A stretch of 50,393 nt of DNA from Gemmatimonadota bacterium (GTDB lineage: Bacteria > Gemmatimonadota > Gemmatimonadetes > Longimicrobiales > Gaopeijiaceae): contig JAPPGI010000001.1 in the NCBI GenBank assembly GCA_028874985.1, forward strand, positions 1-50,393. Reading direction: 5' to 3'. The notes under the pieces are model-generated. The model saw only the letters and a list, made by a program, of their open reading frames with translations, searched no databases and was not told the DNA's origin. Of the stretch, positions 33,299 through 44,669 are shown in pieces (position 1 is the first letter of the stretch; each line of letters starts with the position of its first letter). A program made the position numbers and the translations under genes.

Positions 33299-33378
33299 GG
33301 CAGGCAAGGTGTTCGCTTGAGAGAGACCCGATACCTTTGAAACATCCCCGGAGAAAGTCAACGCAAGGAGAGGCGCGC

Positions 33379-35766
33379 ATGCGGCGGCACGGAACAGATC
33401 CGCAGACCACCCAGGAAACGTCACCACCCTACCTGTGGGCGGGGGCGACGGCGGCCGTCGTAGGGTTGCTCTACGCCGTGACCCTCGCACCCACGACCGC
33501 GTTCTGGGACACGAGCGAATACATCGCCACCGCACACATCCTGGGCATCCCGCACCCCCCCGGAAACCCTCTCTTCGTGGTTCTCGCCCGTACCTGGGAC
33601 ATCCTTCTCGGGGTCTTCGGCCTGTCCACCGCCGTCAAGATCAACCTCCTTTCCGCATTCATGGGCGCCCTCTCGCACGGCCTCTGGTTCCTTGTGGTTC
33701 ACCACATCCTCAGGCACTTCTCCACCGACCGCCGCTTCCGCCTTTTCGGCGCCTTCGCGGCGGTTCTGGTGAGCGCGACCGCCTTCACCGTCTGGAACCA
33801 GTCGAACGTGAACGAGAAGGTCTACACGGTGTCGCTGCTCACCATCGCCCTCCTTTCCTGGCTCGCCTTCCGCTGGCAGGAGAGACTGGGCCGGTCCGGA
33901 GACGACAACCTGCTCATTCTCATGGTGTTCGTGCTGGCGCTTTCGGTGGGCAACCATCTCATGGCCTTCCTCGCGGCCCCCGCGCTGTTCCTGTTCGTGG
34001 TCTACGTTCACCCGCGGTGCCTCCTGAACCACCGGCTGTACCTGTTCGGCATCCCCGCCGTCGTCCTGGGGCTTTCCATTCATCTCTTCCTTCCCATCCG
34101 CTCCGGCCTCGGCCCGGTGATCAACGAGGCACAACCGACCTGCCAGAACATCGGGGAGGCCGTGGCGAGCGTCGTCACCTACGGCAACGCGGGATGCGAG
34201 GATCTGTCCGGCGCGCTGAAACGCAAGCAGTACGAGAAGCCGCCGGTGTCCGAGCGTCAGGCCCCCCTCGCCTCCCAGGTCGGCAACTGGCTCCAGTACT
34301 TCGACTGGCAGTGGGCCAGATCCCTCTCGCCGACCGACTCCACCTTCGGCAGCGCGCGGATACCCCTCACCGCGCTGTTCATCGGGCTGGGCATACTCGG
34401 CATCCTCGAACACTACCGCCGGGACAGGGCGAGCTGGGTCTACTTCATCTCACTCTTCGCCGTGCTCTCGGCCGGCCTCGTCTACTACCTGAACTTCAAG
34501 TACGGCTACTCCATGCCGCTGCCGGAGGGCGAGGAACTCCGTCGCGCCATGCAAGAGGCGAATGCGGACACCTCCCGCGACCTCGCCGAGGTTCGCGAAC
34601 GCGACTACTTCTTCGTCGTGGGCTTCTCGGTGTGGGGGCTGCTGGCCGGGATCGGCATCACGAGCCTCTGGGACCGCGCCACCAGAAAGTCGGGGCGCTC
34701 GCTCGCGGCCACTTCACCGGTGCTGGCGCTGGCCCTCGTACCCCTGGTGCTCAACTTCAGCTGGGCCAGCCGACGCGGGGACTATGCGGCCAGGGACTGG
34801 GCCCACAACCTCCTCATGAGCGTCGAGCCCTACGGCATCCTCTTCACCAACGGTGACAACGACACCTTCCCCCTCTGGTATCTGCAGGAGGTGGAGGGCA
34901 TCCGGCGGGACGTGACCGTCGCGGTGACCTCCTACCTGAACACGGACTGGTATGTAAAGCAGCTCCGCGACATCACCCGCCCCTGCCGGCCCGGCCAGGA
35001 CCCGGACGCGGATCCCACGCGCATCCTCTGCCAGCGGCCCTACACCGCGGAGAACACCGGAGCCATGTACACCCACGACCCCGCCGAGGCCAGGGCAGCG
35101 GGCAAGGTTCCGATCCTCCTGCGCGAACCGGTGCGCCCCCCGACACGCGGGATGTTCCGCTCGGACCTCGGCGACGCCCGCATCGACGGGGTGGCCGGCA
35201 GCTACCAACAACTCAGGAACGACCAGGTGTTCGACCTGGGTCTCCTGACCGCCAGGATGGCCGGCGGCCAGATCCTCTATCCGTGGCACCAATTCACGCT
35301 CGCCGCAATCTCCAACTCCCTGGGGGACCGTCCCGTGTACTTCGCGTCGGCCAGGACCCCGGCAATACGCTTCGGCATCGCGCAGCACATCGTGCGCCAG
35401 GGTCTGGCCTTCCGGCTCTGGCCGGGGAACCCGGGCGAGCTGGAGCCGTGGGGTGTCTTGCGCAACCAGGACACCCGTGCCCAGGGCGGTCTTCTGGGCG
35501 CGTGGCTGGACATCCCCCGCACCCGTCTCCTGGCGGACAGCGTCTTCATGCATCGTTCCGGCATTCCGGACGATTGGGAGTACTGGCCGGATCGCTCCAC
35601 GCTGGGAATCCCGAACTACTACGCCTGGGTGTACTATGCCCTCTCCCAGGACCCCGCACTCAGGGGTGACCCGGCCGCCATCGCCGAACACCAGGACCGC
35701 ATCAACGCGTGGGAGGAGCTGGCCGCATCGCTATACCCCCCCCAGCCAGACGACACCGAGCCCTGA
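33379..35766 (+). CDS. DUF2723-family polytopic membrane protein (glycosyltransferase-like)
   Basis: 795 residues from ATG 33379, with AAGGAGAGG 7 bases upstream. About ten transmembrane helices in the N-terminal ~420 residues. Signature near the N-terminus: TAFWDTSEYIATAHILGIPHPPGNPLF, whose acidic residue in the first loop is as in GT-C glycosyltransferases. The C-terminal soluble domain includes ILFTNGDNDTFPLWYLQEVEGIRRDVTV. DUF2723 covers bacterial relatives of TMEM260, a protein O-mannosyltransferase, so extracytoplasmic glycosylation of proteins or polymers is likely. Ends 36 bases inside the convergent SbcDC-like gene. Confidence 0.88.
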   Translation: MRRHGTDPQTTQETSPPYLWAGATAAVVGLLYAVTLAPTTAFWDTSEYIATAHILGIPHPPGNPLFVVLARTWDILLGVFGLSTAVKINLLSAFMGALSHGLWFLVVHHILRHFSTDRRFRLFGAFAAVLVSATAFTVWNQSNVNEKVYTVSLLTIALLSWLAFRWQERLGRSGDDNLLILMVFVLALSVGNHLMAFLAAPALFLFVVYVHPRCLLNHRLYLFGIPAVVLGLSIHLFLPIRSGLGPVINEAQPTCQNIGEAVASVVTYGNAGCEDLSGALKRKQYEKPPVSERQAPLASQVGNWLQYFDWQWARSLSPTDSTFGSARIPLTALFIGLGILGILEHYRRDRASWVYFISLFAVLSAGLVYYLNFKYGYSMPLPEGEELRRAMQEANADTSRDLAEVRERDYFFVVGFSVWGLLAGIGITSLWDRATRKSGRSLAATSPVLALALVPLVLNFSWASRRGDYAARDWAHNLLMSVEPYGILFTNGDNDTFPLWYLQEVEGIRRDVTVAVTSYLNTDWYVKQLRDITRPCRPGQDPDADPTRILCQRPYTAENTGAMYTHDPAEARAAGKVPILLREPVRPPTRGMFRSDLGDARIDGVAGSYQQLRNDQVFDLGLLTARMAGGQILYPWHQFTLAAISNSLGDRPVYFASARTPAIRFGIAQHIVRQGLAFRLWPGNPGELEPWGVLRNQDTRAQGGLLGAWLDIPRTRLLADSVFMHRSGIPDDWEYWPDRSTLGIPNYYAWVYYALSQDPALRGDPAAIAEHQDRINAWEELAASLYPPQPDDTEP

Positions 35767-38262
35767 CCTGCGGCGCCGGATGCCGCCCCCCTTCGCCTGA
35801 TCCCGGGCGAAGTACACGAAGTCGAAATACTCGGGCGCGGAACCCACCACTCCCGGCGACGCGTGCACCACGACCACGCGAAAGAGTCTCGTCAACCCGG
35901 CCAGCGCCTCCAGTGCCCGCGGTCGATCGTCGCGGCGGAGGCGGTCCAGGCTGACCGGGAAGACCACCCCGCCCAGCTCCACCCCCGCACCGGCCGCCAC
36001 CTCCGCGAGCACAAGACGGCCCGCCAGATCCAGAACGGCGACATCCGCCCCTCCCCGCCGCCCACCCCCCGCCCACTCCGCGAAGAGTTCGTCGAAGACA
36101 CCCGCCAGCCGTCCCCCGGTCAGCGCGACCACCTTCCCGTGAACAACGGCCCTCAAGCGCCGCCTCGTCTCGGCCGCGAGCGCGTCCCGGTCCCCCGCCA
36201 CCCCTCCGCCCGCAGCCCCGGAACCGTCGGCACCCCGTCCACCGACGGCGTCCGCCCCGCCCCCGAGACATGCCCGCATCTCGACGAGTTCGTCCAGGTG
36301 CCGCACCGCAGCCCCCAGCTCCGCAGCCCGCACCCTCCCCCGTTCCACCTCCTCGGCCAGGCTGTCACCCTCCCGGCCCAACCCCGCCAACCGCACCTCG
36401 GCCGCCTCGAGTTCCTCCGGCCTCCGCTCCAGCTGGTCGCGGCGGCGGCGCCACCAGCGCCCGTCCTGCACGACGGCCTTCCACTCCTCCCTGCGCGCCT
36501 CGCGCACCTTCCCGGCACGATCCCCGAGCGGCCGGCCGCAACCCCCGCACGGCACACCCTCCTCCGCCTCTTCGAGGCCGCTCAGCTCCCCGCGCAGTTC
36601 CCGCTCGCGGTCCCTGTACAGGAGGAGCCGGGTCTCCGCGTCCTGACGCTCCCTCAGCCACGCCTCCGTTCCCGTCGCCACCCGGTCCCGCGCCACCGCC
36701 TCCTCGTCGCGCACCGCGCGCAACCGGGCCTCCAGGCCCGCGATCCCCGCGTGGGCACGGCCGAGCCGCTCCACATTCTCTCTCGCCTCGAGGATCGACC
36801 GCTCGACCCGCCGGATCAGCGACCCCGCGTCGCCGTATTCCGCGCGCGCATCAGGCGACTCGACCGCCGCTCCGCCCCCGCGCAGCCCGAGGGCGCCCTC
36901 CGGGCCGACGAGCAGCGCCCCCGCCGCTTCCAGCCACGAATCCCGGGTTCCGCGGCCGAACCACAGCGCCGCGAACTCATCGCGCCCGAGGGCGTGGGAC
37001 GCGAGCACCGGTTCGAGCAGCTCTTCGAAGCCGGGCGTTCCGACATGGGCGGCACCTCCCTTCCAGTCCACCACCACCCCCGCCCCACGATCCCGCACCT
37101 CGCCGGCGAATGCCGCATCCAACCCCGCCACCAGCTCATTCCAAAGCGCGGAGGAGTCATCCGCGAACGCCACCAGACCGCGCGAACTCCGCAGGTCGAG
37201 CACGGGTCCGCCGGGCCTCGCCCGGAGCGTCGAAATCATCAGCCGGCCGCCACCCTCGTCGTCGACCGGGCCTGTCGCGGGCCTCACCGGGGCATCGCTC
37301 CCCACCCGCTTCCCCACCTCTTCGTCCGAGCCGTCCCCGGCGGGAAGCGCCTCCACGCGCAACTCGGCAACCCGGCGGCCGAGGCCCGTCAGCACCTCCC
37401 GGTCGAGGACCGCCAGATCTTCGGGCGAGAGGCCCCGCACGGGCACCTTCAGCAGCTTTCCGTCGATCCCGCCCGGCACTCCCGCCAACGCCTCTCCCAG
37501 CCTGCGCGCGACCGTCGCGGTCCCGCCGCCCGTGGCCTCCGTCGGGGCCAGGCTCACCGCCGCCCGCGCTTCGACCGGCCAGAAAGTCGGATCTCCCGAC
37601 TCCAGCTGCACCGTAACGAAACCCTTCCCGATCGCCGCCTCCCGCCACGGATCGGTGCCGACCCGCTCCAGGGATCCGCTGTAGCAGGCCCGTTCCCCGA
37701 CGCGACGGTACGCATGGCTGGAGCCCAGGGCGACGTAGTCCCACCCATCCATCGGAACTTCGAGCGCGTGCGAGCGTCCCGACGCCACCTCCGCATGCAG
37801 CACCAGAATGTTCCGCTCGGCGGCGGGATCCGGGGAGAGGTCCGGGAAGTGCGTGGCCATCACGACCGGGTGGGGAACGAGGGTGACGCCAACCCTGCCC
37901 CCGTCCAGACGGAGGCGCCGCACCGCGGTCCCCGCCACCTCCACCCCGTCGATCGCACCGATGACGGTGAGAGGTCCGTGCCTCCCCCCATCCGGGGGAA
38001 GGTCCCGAGCCCCGGCCGCCACGGCCACGACCACGCCGGGAAGGTTGGCGCGCAGCCTGCGGATTCCCCGCGAAAACGCCGCGATCGGCCCCGCGGTCAC
38101 ATCGGCATGGTCGAAGACATCACCGGCAATGACCACAAGCTCCGGACCGAGCTCGGCGACGCGCGCCAACGCGCTCTCGAACACCCGCAGGACATCCCGG
38201 GCCCGCCCCGGGCCCGCCCCGGCGTAGCCCAGGTGCAGGTCCGACAGATGGGCCGCCTTCAT
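35731..38262 (-). CDS. Fused Mre11/SbcD-like phosphoesterase and Rad50/YhaN-like coiled-coil protein with degenerate active sites
   Basis: 843 residues in one frame. Residues 1-235 are an Mre11/SbcD/YhaO-type fold: HLSDLHLGY (Asp8, His10), VVIAGDVFD (Asp48), VLHAEV (His156) and the cap YSGSLERVG are kept, but the GNHD motif is GARD (84-87) and GHxH is GSSH (180-183), so several metal ligands are missing. Residues ~340-843 follow a Rad50/YhaN plan: LDLRSSRGLVAFADDSS where the GxxxxGKS/T P-loop should be (~360-372), long coiled coils, a Rad50 zinc hook CGGCGRPL (Cys572, Cys575), then a C-terminal half without Walker B or signature motif (ends VVVVHASPGVVGSAPEYFDF). Start overlaps the upstream gene (ATGA). 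Likely a non-canonical, possibly ATP-independent DNA-end protein. Confidence 0.75.
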   Translation of the reverse strand: MKAAHLSDLHLGYAGAGPGRARDVLRVFESALARVAELGPELVVIAGDVFDHADVTAGPIAAFSRGIRRLRANLPGVVVAVAAGARDLPPDGGRHGPLTVIGAIDGVEVAGTAVRRLRLDGGRVGVTLVPHPVVMATHFPDLSPDPAAERNILVLHAEVASGRSHALEVPMDGWDYVALGSSHAYRRVGERACYSGSLERVGTDPWREAAIGKGFVTVQLESGDPTFWPVEARAAVSLAPTEATGGGTATVARRLGEALAGVPGGIDGKLLKVPVRGLSPEDLAVLDREVLTGLGRRVAELRVEALPAGDGSDEEVGKRVGSDAPVRPATGPVDDEGGGRLMISTLRARPGGPVLDLRSSRGLVAFADDSSALWNELVAGLDAAFAGEVRDRGAGVVVDWKGGAAHVGTPGFEELLEPVLASHALGRDEFAALWFGRGTRDSWLEAAGALLVGPEGALGLRGGGAAVESPDARAEYGDAGSLIRRVERSILEARENVERLGRAHAGIAGLEARLRAVRDEEAVARDRVATGTEAWLRERQDAETRLLLYRDRERELRGELSGLEEAEEGVPCGGCGRPLGDRAGKVREARREEWKAVVQDGRWWRRRRDQLERRPEELEAAEVRLAGLGREGDSLAEEVERGRVRAAELGAAVRHLDELVEMRACLGGGADAVGGRGADGSGAAGGGVAGDRDALAAETRRRLRAVVHGKVVALTGGRLAGVFDELFAEWAGGGRRGGADVAVLDLAGRLVLAEVAAGAGVELGGVVFPVSLDRLRRDDRPRALEALAGLTRLFRVVVVHASPGVVGSAPEYFDFVYFARDQAKGGGIRRRRSGLGVVWLGGV

Positions 38263-39524
38263 CAGTGGCTCTCGGATTCGGCCGCCCGTGCGTGCCCGCC
38301 CGGCATCCTCGCTTCGGAGACCGGCCCCGGCGGGTTCACCGAACGATCGAGGCGCCAGAGCTCCTTGCGTCGCGGCTTCATGCGCGGCAACCCCGCCACG
38401 CCGGCCACGCTCGCGGCAAAGCGGGCCACACCGAATCCGGCCCGCGCCGCGGCTTCGGCCAGCGCAGGCGGCAACCGGTCCGGATCCAACCCGACCCAGA
38501 CCCTTTCGACCTTCGCCTCGCGGAGCCCCGCAAGCAGTTCCGGGATTGTGAAGGACTTCACAAGCGCGTCCCCCGACTGCTCCCAGTCCACGACCACGGT
38601 GCAGCCGGGAGTATCCGGTACCGGAGACCCGACCAGCGATCCGTCCGGCCAGGCGAAGCCCTCGGCCGCCAGCGCCGCCACATCGCCGTCCGGCTCGTAC
38701 ACCCGCCATCCCTTCCAGCCGTCCCGGCTGAACCAGCCGCCGGCCCCCACGAAGAGGACCGCGCCGGCGGGGTCGAGGGAACTCGCGACCGTCCGGCGCC
38801 AGTCACCGCCGGGAGGAGGATCGACGGCCAGCCGCCTTCCCTCGTCCCGGAGGACCCGCAATTCCGTCTTCGGAACGGCCGTTTGCCAGACTTCGAAGCG
38901 AAGTTCGGGGCGGCCGGTCTTACGCAGAACGACATGCCGCCGCGGTAGCCGGTCGAAGATCCACCCCTGGCAACGAGCGCCCCCCGACGCGAACACCGTC
39001 GCCGCCAGGAAGGCCGTGACGGCCAGCACGGGCCGGCCGAGAACCGCCGGAACCAGGGCCGCTCCCACGGCCGTCCCCACCACCGCCCCGATCACGACCT
39101 GACACCTGACCGAGACCCCGAGCGCACCTGCGAAACTCCCGATGCGGCCCCAGACTCCGCCGGCGAAGTACGCCGGGAGGGCACCGGTGAAGGCGAGGCC
39201 CAGGCCTTGGGCGACCGCCACCGTCCCGAACCCCTCCATCGTTTCCCAGAGAGCGGCGAAGCCGGCACCCATGAGCAGTGCCACGAGGAGTCCCATCCAC
39301 CACCTGGCGGCGGTGGACAGGGCTCCGTCGCCGTCCCCGGCCGCTCCCATCCACAGGCCGGCAAGCAGGGAAAGCACCGTGACCGCGGCCAGCACGGCGG
39401 CCGCCCGCGCCAGTCCCTGCGAATCGTACAGGAGGACCGCCGCACCGGTGGCCACTCCGGTGGCTGTGGCCGCACCCACCAGCAGCGAGGGCAGCCAGAT
39501 CATTCGCCGCGCCCGGTTCACCAT
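38262..39524 (-). CDS. Membrane protein of unknown function, co-translated with the SbcDC-like fusion
   Basis: 420 residues from ATG 39524 (GTG at 39533 is another possible start with a GGAG 11 bases before it). Six or so transmembrane helices in residues ~10-180 (LPSLLVGAATATGVATGAAVLL; VLAAVTVLSLLAGLWMG; MGLLVALLMGAGFAALW and others), then a soluble domain of ~230 residues (VVLRKTGRPELRFEVWQTA; AGAVLFVGAGGWFSRDGW; TVVVDWEQSGDALVKSFTIP) and a basic tail. The soluble part vaguely recalls the spermidine-synthase-like domain of polytopic proteins, but key motifs are absent. Its stop overlaps the start of the fusion gene (ATGA). Confidence 0.65.
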   Translation of the reverse strand: MVNRARRMIWLPSLLVGAATATGVATGAAVLLYDSQGLARAAAVLAAVTVLSLLAGLWMGAAGDGDGALSTAARWWMGLLVALLMGAGFAALWETMEGFGTVAVAQGLGLAFTGALPAYFAGGVWGRIGSFAGALGVSVRCQVVIGAVVGTAVGAALVPAVLGRPVLAVTAFLAATVFASGGARCQGWIFDRLPRRHVVLRKTGRPELRFEVWQTAVPKTELRVLRDEGRRLAVDPPPGGDWRRTVASSLDPAGAVLFVGAGGWFSRDGWKGWRVYEPDGDVAALAAEGFAWPDGSLVGSPVPDTPGCTVVVDWEQSGDALVKSFTIPELLAGLREAKVERVWVGLDPDRLPPALAEAAARAGFGVARFAASVAGVAGLPRMKPRRKELWRLDRSVNPPGPVSEARMPGGHARAAESESH

Positions 39525-39598
39525 GCCGGACACGCCGGACGACGCTCCACTATCCGGTGCAACGGCCGTGCATTCATGCCGGATTCTCCCACGGGCCG

Positions 39599-43034: not shown

Positions 43035-43145
43035 GGAAGGCCACAATAGTGCGTGTGCCGGGACAGCGCAATGCGGATTCGGGACTGATTGTCCCGGCAA
43101 TCCCGCGTTGACCTGACCCGAATAAATCACGAAATTGCAATCCCC

Positions 43146-44213
43146 ATGGCAACTTCGCCTCTTCGCGAGAAGGTCCGCACGCACGCCGAGGACCGTCCCG
43201 GCGTCTACCGCTGGCTCGGTGCCGGCGGGAGGATCCTCTACGTCGGCAAGTCCGTGCGGCTCAGGTCGCGCCTCCTGTCGTACTTCCGGGAAGACAGCGG
43301 GAAGGCGGCCCGCATGGTGTCCGAGGCGGAGGACGTCAACTGGGACCTCAGGCCGAACGAGTTCGCGGCGCTGGTCCGGGAGATGCACCTCATCCGTGCG
43401 TGGCAGCCCGAGTACAACGTGCAACACAGGCGCGACCGCCGGTACGGGTTCATCAAGATCACACGGGAGCCTGCACCCCGGCTGGTCCCCGTCTCACGCG
43501 TCCGGAGCGACGGTGCGAGCTACTACGGGCCCTTCGCGCAGACGGGCTGGCTCGCACGGGCGGTGCACGACCTGTCGCTGGCGACCGGACTGCGAGACTG
43601 TCCCGCCCACACTCCGATCCACTTCGGCGACCAGCTCGAGATCTTCTCCGGCGGAAGGGTGCCGCGCTGCATCCGCGCCGACACGGGAACCTGTCTCGCG
43701 CCCTGCGCCGGCCGCTGCACGACCGCCGACTACGACGGGCGCCTGCGCCTGGCCCGCGCCTTCCTCGAGGCCCGCAGCCGCGCACCCCTGGCCCGGCTGG
43801 CGGACTGCGTGAAGCTGGCGGCTGCCGACCTGCGCTTCGAGTACGCGGCCACCATCCGTGACCGCATGGAGACGCTGGAGAAGCTGTGGAGCCACCTCTC
43901 CGGCTTCCGGGGCCAGGTGGAGAACCTCAACCTGGTCTACCCGGTGCCCGGCTACGGCGGCGACGATCGCATCCATCTGATTCGCCGCGGCCGTCCGTGC
44001 GCCGAGTTGCCGTGGCCGAAGTCGGACCGGGCGCGCAGACACGCCGACGAGGTCGTGGAGGAGGTGTTCCGGCCGGTGCCGTCGGACCGGGACGGGAAGC
44101 TTGAGGCGGACGCGGCCGCCGAGGTGCTCCTGACGCTGTCGTGGTTCAACCGGCATCGCCGGGAGAGGGAGAGGGCAGTGGCGCCGGAGCGGTGGCTGGC
44201 AGTCCGTGGATAA
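43146..44213 (+). CDS. GIY-YIG nuclease, UvrC N-terminal half-like
   Basis: 355 residues from ATG 43146. GIY-YIG fold at the N-terminus (GVYRWLGAGGRILYVGKSVRLRSRL, catalytic Tyr and Arg), then EFAALVREMHLIRAWQPEYNV, and a Cys-rich middle (CIRADTGTCLAPCAGRC). A UVR-type helical hairpin follows (LADCVKLAAADLRFEYAATIRDRMETL). The RNase H-like and helix-hairpin-helix domains of full UvrC are absent, so it resembles Cho, which makes only the 3' incision in nucleotide excision repair. Divergent from the HD phosphohydrolase gene. Confidence 0.85.
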   Translation: MATSPLREKVRTHAEDRPGVYRWLGAGGRILYVGKSVRLRSRLLSYFREDSGKAARMVSEAEDVNWDLRPNEFAALVREMHLIRAWQPEYNVQHRRDRRYGFIKITREPAPRLVPVSRVRSDGASYYGPFAQTGWLARAVHDLSLATGLRDCPAHTPIHFGDQLEIFSGGRVPRCIRADTGTCLAPCAGRCTTADYDGRLRLARAFLEARSRAPLARLADCVKLAAADLRFEYAATIRDRMETLEKLWSHLSGFRGQVENLNLVYPVPGYGGDDRIHLIRRGRPCAELPWPKSDRARRHADEVVEEVFRPVPSDRDGKLEADAAAEVLLTLSWFNRHRRERERAVAPERWLAVRG

Positions 44214-44261: not shown

Positions 44262-44669
44262 TCACGAACTTGCCGGTCTCCCTCCGGTAACGCGGATCGG
44301 GCCGGGATAGCGGCCCACGGTCCTGTCCGCGGTAAGGAGGATCACACCTTCGATGCGGGCCTGGGCGACCAGGATGCGGTCGAAGGGATCGGCGTGGATG
44401 GGCGGCAGCAGGTCGACCGCGGCCGCGTGCGCACCGGTGACCGGAAGCTCCGTGTAGCCGTTCTCGAGCAGGCCGCGACGCAGGATACGCGGATCGACAT
44501 CGAAGTCGGGGCGCCCCAGTCCGCTCTTGATGGCCACCTCCCAGATGGACGCGGCGCTGTAGAGCAGCTCCGTTCCATCGTCCTCGATAAGGTCGCGCGC
44601 CCCGCGTGGTAACCGCTCCGGAAAGCCGGCGGCCCACAGAAGCACGTGGGTGTCGAGAAGGACGGTCAT
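44262..44669 (-). CDS. vapC: VapC-type PIN-domain RNase toxin
   Basis: 135 residues starting MTVLLDTHVLLWA. PIN acidic residues: Asp in LLDTHVLLW (~6), Glu in SAASIWEVAIKSGLG (~44), Asp in ADPFDRILVAQA (~95) and Asp in LLTADRTVGRY (~114). Start overlaps the antitoxin stop by 4 bases (ATGA). Predicted tRNA/rRNA endonuclease held by the adjacent antitoxin. Complete. Confidence 0.9.
   Translation of the reverse strand: MTVLLDTHVLLWAAGFPERLPRGARDLIEDDGTELLYSAASIWEVAIKSGLGRPDFDVDPRILRRGLLENGYTELPVTGAHAAAVDLLPPIHADPFDRILVAQARIEGVILLTADRTVGRYPGPIRVTGGRPASS

Follow-up and report, generated by a model that had tools for sequence, protein, structure and literature searches.

A Gemmatimonadota Mre11-Rad50 family that has lost its ATPase motifs and part of its nuclease site and has kept its zinc hook

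To our knowledge, the Mre11-Rad50 complexes studied so far carry out tethering, ATP cycling and cutting together, and these activities have been separated only by laboratory mutants. Fusions of Mre11 and Rad50 in one chain have been described and are sporadic and virus- or plasmid-linked; the Mimivirus protein R555 retains both Walker motifs (A and B) and almost the full set of nuclease residues, two fusions with one P-loop NTPase segment unobserved were recorded, and no clade-wide loss was described (PMC3175470). A literature search that covered few subscription journals found no paper on Mre11/Rad50 pseudoenzymes.

The window, that is, the whole stretch of DNA analyzed, comprises 50,393 nucleotides from a Gemmatimonadota genome (G000) and encodes a fused Mre11-like and Rad50-like protein in which the ATPase motifs and part of the nuclease site are gone, a state referred to below as stripped. 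With a probability of about 0.5, the stripped protein is read here as an ATP-independent, non-cutting DNA tether, held by its hook and by Mre11 dimerization and derived from a Gemmatimonadota Mre11/Rad50 pair. A structural scaffold was among the roles proposed in an earlier sequence-only reading of the window, and is the best of them.

Domain plan and motif state of the protein

The gene occupies positions 35731-38262 of the window (minus strand) as an unbroken frame of 843 codons, which translates without a stop into one chain as first reported, and its 3′ end shares bases with that of a convergent gene (33337-35766). The AlphaFold2 monomer model of the chain has a mean pLDDT of 87.5 and a pTM of 0.73. 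Residues 1-230 (37573-38262, minus strand, as for all features of the gene) form a Mre11-like phosphoesterase domain, to which Pfam Metallophos (PF00149) matches with 26.3 bits, exceeding its cut-off, and Mre11 structures rank top in Foldseek searches with the full-chain model (E down to 2.5e-14). It is followed by a capping domain (residues 231-310, 37333-37572), a disordered linker (residues 311-340, 37243-37332; pLDDT below 50 over 311-338), within which the gene boundary falls in unfused relatives, a remnant of ATPase lobe I (residues 341-478, 36829-37242; delimited by alignment with intact orthologues and by the model), a coiled coil (residues 479-685) and a remnant of ATPase lobe II (residues 686-830, 35773-36207). 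Pfam and NCBIfam confidently detect the Mre11 part only: no Pfam ATPase or Rad50 family, including YhaN AAA_27 (PF13514), matched the C-terminal half, and the SbcD model TIGR00619 gave 29.8 bits, below its cut-off of 77.65. A separate model of the C-terminal half (pLDDT 89.1) matched SMC, Lamassu/Jet and Rad50 heads. None of the PADLOC anti-phage defence profiles (Lamassu LmuB and others) matched the window protein, and one of its relatives gave a weak LmuB match across the coil.

The motifs of the Mre11-like domain were read in the window protein and across about 95 stripped loci of f1, the code used here for the GTDB family of the window. Motif I (SDLHLG, D8-x-H10, 38233-38241), D48 of motif II (GDVFD, 38110-38124; motif reading and family alignment) and the second His of motif V, H183, are retained: D8, H10, D48 and H183 are found in 95, 94, 93 and 91 of about 96 rows, which include one intact copy (G189) and are counted per locus, regardless of relatedness among loci. 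In motif III, GARD (residues 84-87, 38002-38013) replaces GNHD/E and places Arg86 at the position of the Mre11 catalytic His, a change to GxRD that is family-wide (Arg in 92 loci), with the motif-III Asn lost in nearly all loci. In motif V, GSSH (residues 180-183, 37714-37725) replaces GHxH, which is usually GxxH in the family; the first His is lost in about 90% of loci and retained only in six degenerate loci of genera g23 and g27. The GARD, GSSH and YSGSLER motifs and the CGGCGRPL hook sequence are all present as originally read, and several nuclease ligands are indeed lost as proposed, but D8, H10, D48 and H183 survive, as does the motif-IV His in the window protein, though not throughout f1. 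Ligands of motif I, II or V are missing in a few f1 loci, and the full set of seven Mre11 metal ligands and the catalytic His was not found in the stripped family.

From what is established for Mre11 and related phosphoesterases, the four retained residues presumably form a single metal site, whereas those that were lost belong to the second site and to the catalytic His. The main rival to a tether, although unlikely, is a retooled one-metal phosphoesterase, in which D8, H10, D48 and H183 would hold the metal, Arg86 would stabilize the substrate phosphate, and hook-mediated dimers would act on another substrate (RNA, a nucleotide or a protein phosphate). The near invariance of the four ligands and of the clade-specific GxRD Arg favors it, as does a nuclease domain conserved to much the same degree as that of intact Mre11 (pairwise identity 0.52 in stripped proteins versus 0.56 in intact relatives); the losses in motifs III and V argue against it, and all Mre11-type phosphoesterases known to us to act as nucleases use two metals. 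DNA binding by the GxRD version is plausible, because P. furiosus Mre11 with a substitution of the corresponding His (H85S) was, according to its structure entry, crystallized with branched DNA and manganese (PDB 3dsd).

The Rad50-like half has lost its ATPase motifs. The P-loop is absent from all of the approximately 95 stripped loci read, and among 36 aligned representatives the Walker A Lys is never retained, Trp, Arg or, once, Leu standing in its place; these representatives also lack the Q-loop, signature, Walker B Asp and H-switch His or carry other residues there, so that the Walker A, signature, Walker B and H-switch set of an active Rad50 ATPase is not found in the stripped family. 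Its recurrence across about 95 loci puts this state far beyond chance. In the window protein the replacement of the P-loop, first placed at about residues 365-371, was borne out by alignment with intact orthologues, but the slot that aligns with their GPNGAGKST is DDSSALWNE at 368-376 (37135-37161). The absence of a C-terminal Walker B and signature likewise holds, D-loop and H-switch being eroded too, but lobe II is still recognizable by alignment and fold.

The zinc hook, CGGC (C572 and C575, 36538-36549) within CGGCGRPL, is a true one judged by sequence, as had been claimed: the CxxC pair is present in 91 of 91 loci, and W535, Q540, D600, G601, W603, W604, R607 and Q610 are invariant. The hook-proximal coiled coil (residues 531-625, 36388-36672) is the most conserved region of the family.

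Descent, distribution and selection

Relatives of the protein are present in 326 of 395 genomes of the phylum, found by genome searches by rank, a single-sequence search of contigs having returned one relative only (L001, 68% relative, Gemmatimonadota MAG RHO3_bin_71). The genomes used are probably nearly all metagenome-assembled. Within f1 the stripped form occurs in 98 of 121 genomes and 31 of 40 genera; it was not found by a two-step search in genus g4 and some other f1 genera, absences that depend on that search and on genome completeness. In G192, matches to the upstream membrane gene and the downstream DUF2723-like gene lie about 160 bases apart with nothing between them, which is a clean loss, and this, together with the genera in which the gene was not found, indicates that the gene is dispensable. 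Close relatives of the window protein were looked for in phage and plasmid records and none were found, and viral contigs yielded no more than remote homologues (29% identity for the one with the best E-value), three of which were read and retain GNHD; a horizontal or viral origin of the stripped form was unsupported by these searches.

Every other family sampled in the class has an intact Mre11/Rad50-type pair, encoded by two genes, one for a Mre11 of about 395 aa and the other for a Rad50 of about 815 aa, and the intact-Rad50 profile (A2, E ≤ 1e-70) matched 243 of 395 genomes of the phylum and, within f1, only G189. The protein is a Mre11/Rad50 relative, as first assigned, but its nearest intact relatives are archaeal-type (Rad50 PRK03918, 188.7 bits; SbcD TIGR00619, 80 bits) and not of the YhaO/YhaN type. 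The gene lies in a cluster of uvrC-like, HD, rpoD, rsgA, membrane, mre, DUF2723-like, trpE and M20 peptidase genes that is largely conserved across f1, several of these names having been assigned by reading sequences. G032, from the same order, has an intact pair between rsgA and trpE, which is the same locus, and in the tree the stripped forms make up a single clade (support 98/99) on a long stem; the motif loss therefore most likely happened in situ and once. Both parts of the stripped protein can be aligned with Mre11 and Rad50, and it has a predicted Mre11 fold, a coiled coil with a CxxC hook and the locus of the intact pair, which together establish its descent. The sequence-only reading had named an intact P-loop homologue at this position as grounds for abandoning its finding; one occurs in another family (G032), and the finding stands because that is the state of lineages beyond the clade, within which the loss is uniform.

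The only intact copy in f1 (G189:C160, L140) is a strongly divergent Mre11-Rad50 pair on a short contig that also has a frame resembling, by eye, a tyrosine recombinase, and is probably phage-borne. It was considered as a surviving ancestor and rejected on account of the short contig, the recombinase-like frame and the strong divergence in the tree.

A HerA-like gene is present in families f5, f4 and f9 and in one f2 genome, and adjoins the intact pair in nearly all tested. It was identified by a PDB sequence search (HerA 7f6d, 7.8e-47) and was missed by the DUF87 profile and by Pfam; at L091:2927-4933 such a HerA-like ATPase adjoins an archaeal-type Mre11-Rad50 pair in bacteria. No HerA match was found in seven f1 carriers outside the sub-clade of the window (G118, G322, G166, G287, G196, G140 and G229), and within that sub-clade only a distant match was found, near a second SbcCD in the genomes checked.

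The stripped clade evolves under purifying selection. For close pairs dN/dS is mostly near 0.1-0.3, and by region it is 0.06-0.09 in the cap, the lowest in the protein, 0.11-0.20 in the nuclease domain, 0.13-0.15 in the hook, 0.13-0.23 in lobe I, 0.18-0.25 in lobe II and 0.34-0.46 in the other coil. Constraint is inverted relative to the intact relatives, the hook being best conserved and the ATPase lobes worst: pairwise identity of the hook coil is 0.59 in stripped proteins versus 0.44 in intact relatives, and that of the two lobes is 0.26 and 0.36 versus 0.57 and 0.66. Where the intact-Rad50 profile matches stripped proteins, it does so chiefly over the hook and the coil on either side of it (approximately positions 320-500 of 814). 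The constraint that persists on the lobes may point to an independent binding function. The loss of the P-loop is thus shared by one clade with dN/dS far below 1, the outcome that the proposed check of a clade-wide loss under purifying selection had asked for.

A decaying pseudogene or assembly artefact, suggested by the loss of nearly all catalytic motifs and by some clean losses, is scarcely credible: open frames in 31 genera, purifying selection and the invariant hook argue against simple decay, as had been supposed from the window, and the locus is one and conserved. A separate MAG (G197) has the same 843-residue fusion, which excludes a mis-assembled gene pair, and pseudogene, frameshift and mis-assembly were rejected on dN/dS and on G197.

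Fusion, neighboring genes and other Mre11-Rad50 relatives

The single chain stressed in the first description is real in the window, and a single frame is also found in G197 and many other genera, but it is not required: in most other members of the genus the two halves are separate genes with an ATGA overlap. The fusion is incidental and secondary, because many relatives encode two overlapping genes, and it is not the new part, because fused Mre11/Rad50 proteins are known (PMC3175470).

Upstream, a gene for a membrane protein of 423 aa (38262-39533, minus strand) has an ATGA overlap with the Mre11-Rad50 gene at 38262. The protein has several hydrophobic segments and no Pfam match, and it seemingly contains an eroded spermidine-synthase-like domain. 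That the two proteins form a single membrane-anchored complex, which either fastens DNA or replication intermediates to the membrane or works together with the spermidine-synthase-like domain, is distinctly improbable. Such a complex would fit the hydrophobic segments, the occurrence of a counterpart immediately preceding the stripped gene in most f1 loci, where the two genes overlap or abut, and the gene upstream of the intact pair in G032, which matches a fused MFS/spermidine synthase; gene coupling is no proof of contact, and G192 retains the membrane gene without any Mre11-Rad50 gene. Elsewhere in the window, reading by eye suggested a small putative PIN-domain (VapC-like) toxin at 44262-44669 (minus strand) and a short UvrC-like GIY-YIG protein at 43089-44213 (plus strand), which lies beside an HD-domain gene across the genus.

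The genome of the window also has a canonical SbcCD (C73; L101/L198) and a YhaO/YhaN-like pair (C156; L102; AAA_27 52.9 bits), both with intact P-loops. Three Mre11-Rad50 relatives thus occur in one genome, and a distant HerA relative lies on the SbcCD contig. The earlier suggestion to look for a normal sbcCD elsewhere in the genome was answered here, but not in all carriers: among seven tested, SbcCD was present in G000, G017, G197 and G070, and no strong SbcD match, only weaker YhaO-like matches, was found in G118, G322 and G166. A regulator or dominant-negative partner of canonical SbcCD, acting by mixed hooks or mixed Mre11 dimers, would fit the genome of the window, but as a general role, which had been suggested, it fails in these three carriers; it is very unlikely, because several carriers have no recognizable SbcCD, and can hold only in lineages that have one.

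Proposed function and comparison with known systems

The stripped Mre11-Rad50 probably holds DNA rather than cutting it, because the ATP motor and part of the cutting site are lost while the hook and half of the metal site are preserved. In the proposed tether the Mre11-like domain, by homology, would still dimerize and bind branched DNA or DNA ends. Only one metal site would remain in it, the second being disrupted, and Arg86 would stand where the catalytic His was; the Rad50-like arms, again by homology, would bind zinc and be joined through the hook. The ATPase lobes would be folded supports for the arms only, with no ATP-driven opening and closing, and the complex should be static, because the hook, folded heads and half metal site are kept but no ATP site. 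Its task would be to keep hold of DNA ends (or forks) or to protect them, perhaps close to the membrane by way of the co-translated neighbor, while other nucleases do the cutting. Against such a tether, the remaining metal site could still support some hydrolysis.

It is tentatively suggested, at a little under even odds, that an entire bacterial family has exchanged the Mre11-Rad50 of its ancestors for an ATP-free, non-cutting version, in which hook tethering and the one-metal Mre11 domain are themselves the selected function. The clade looks like a natural separation of activities, in which the ATPase was discarded along with half the nuclease site and the hold on the hook was tightened. The function of hook-based tethering in its own right becomes directly testable, with the intact sister lineages as controls.

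In other Gemmatimonadota families the archaeal-type Mre11/Rad50, which is often linked to HerA, is homologous to the stripped form throughout and has the Mre11-Rad50 gene order and the hook region in common with it; unlike the stripped form, these pairs have intact GNHD, GHYH, GPNGxGKS/T, SGGEED and LDEVFGxLD. Canonical bacterial SbcCD shares the domain plan and the hook, but in the genome of the window it is encoded by separate genes (435 and 1072 aa) with all motifs intact, and the similarity is distant only. Mimivirus R555 and other Mre11/Rad50 fusions have, like the window protein, an N-terminal Mre11 and a C-terminal Rad50 in one chain (PMC3175470). Dpb2-type DNA polymerase B subunits, which contain an inactivated calcineurin-like phosphoesterase (PMC7308368), have no Rad50 part and no hook, unlike the stripped protein, and already provide a case in which a domain of the Mre11 superfamily was inactivated and retained as structure.
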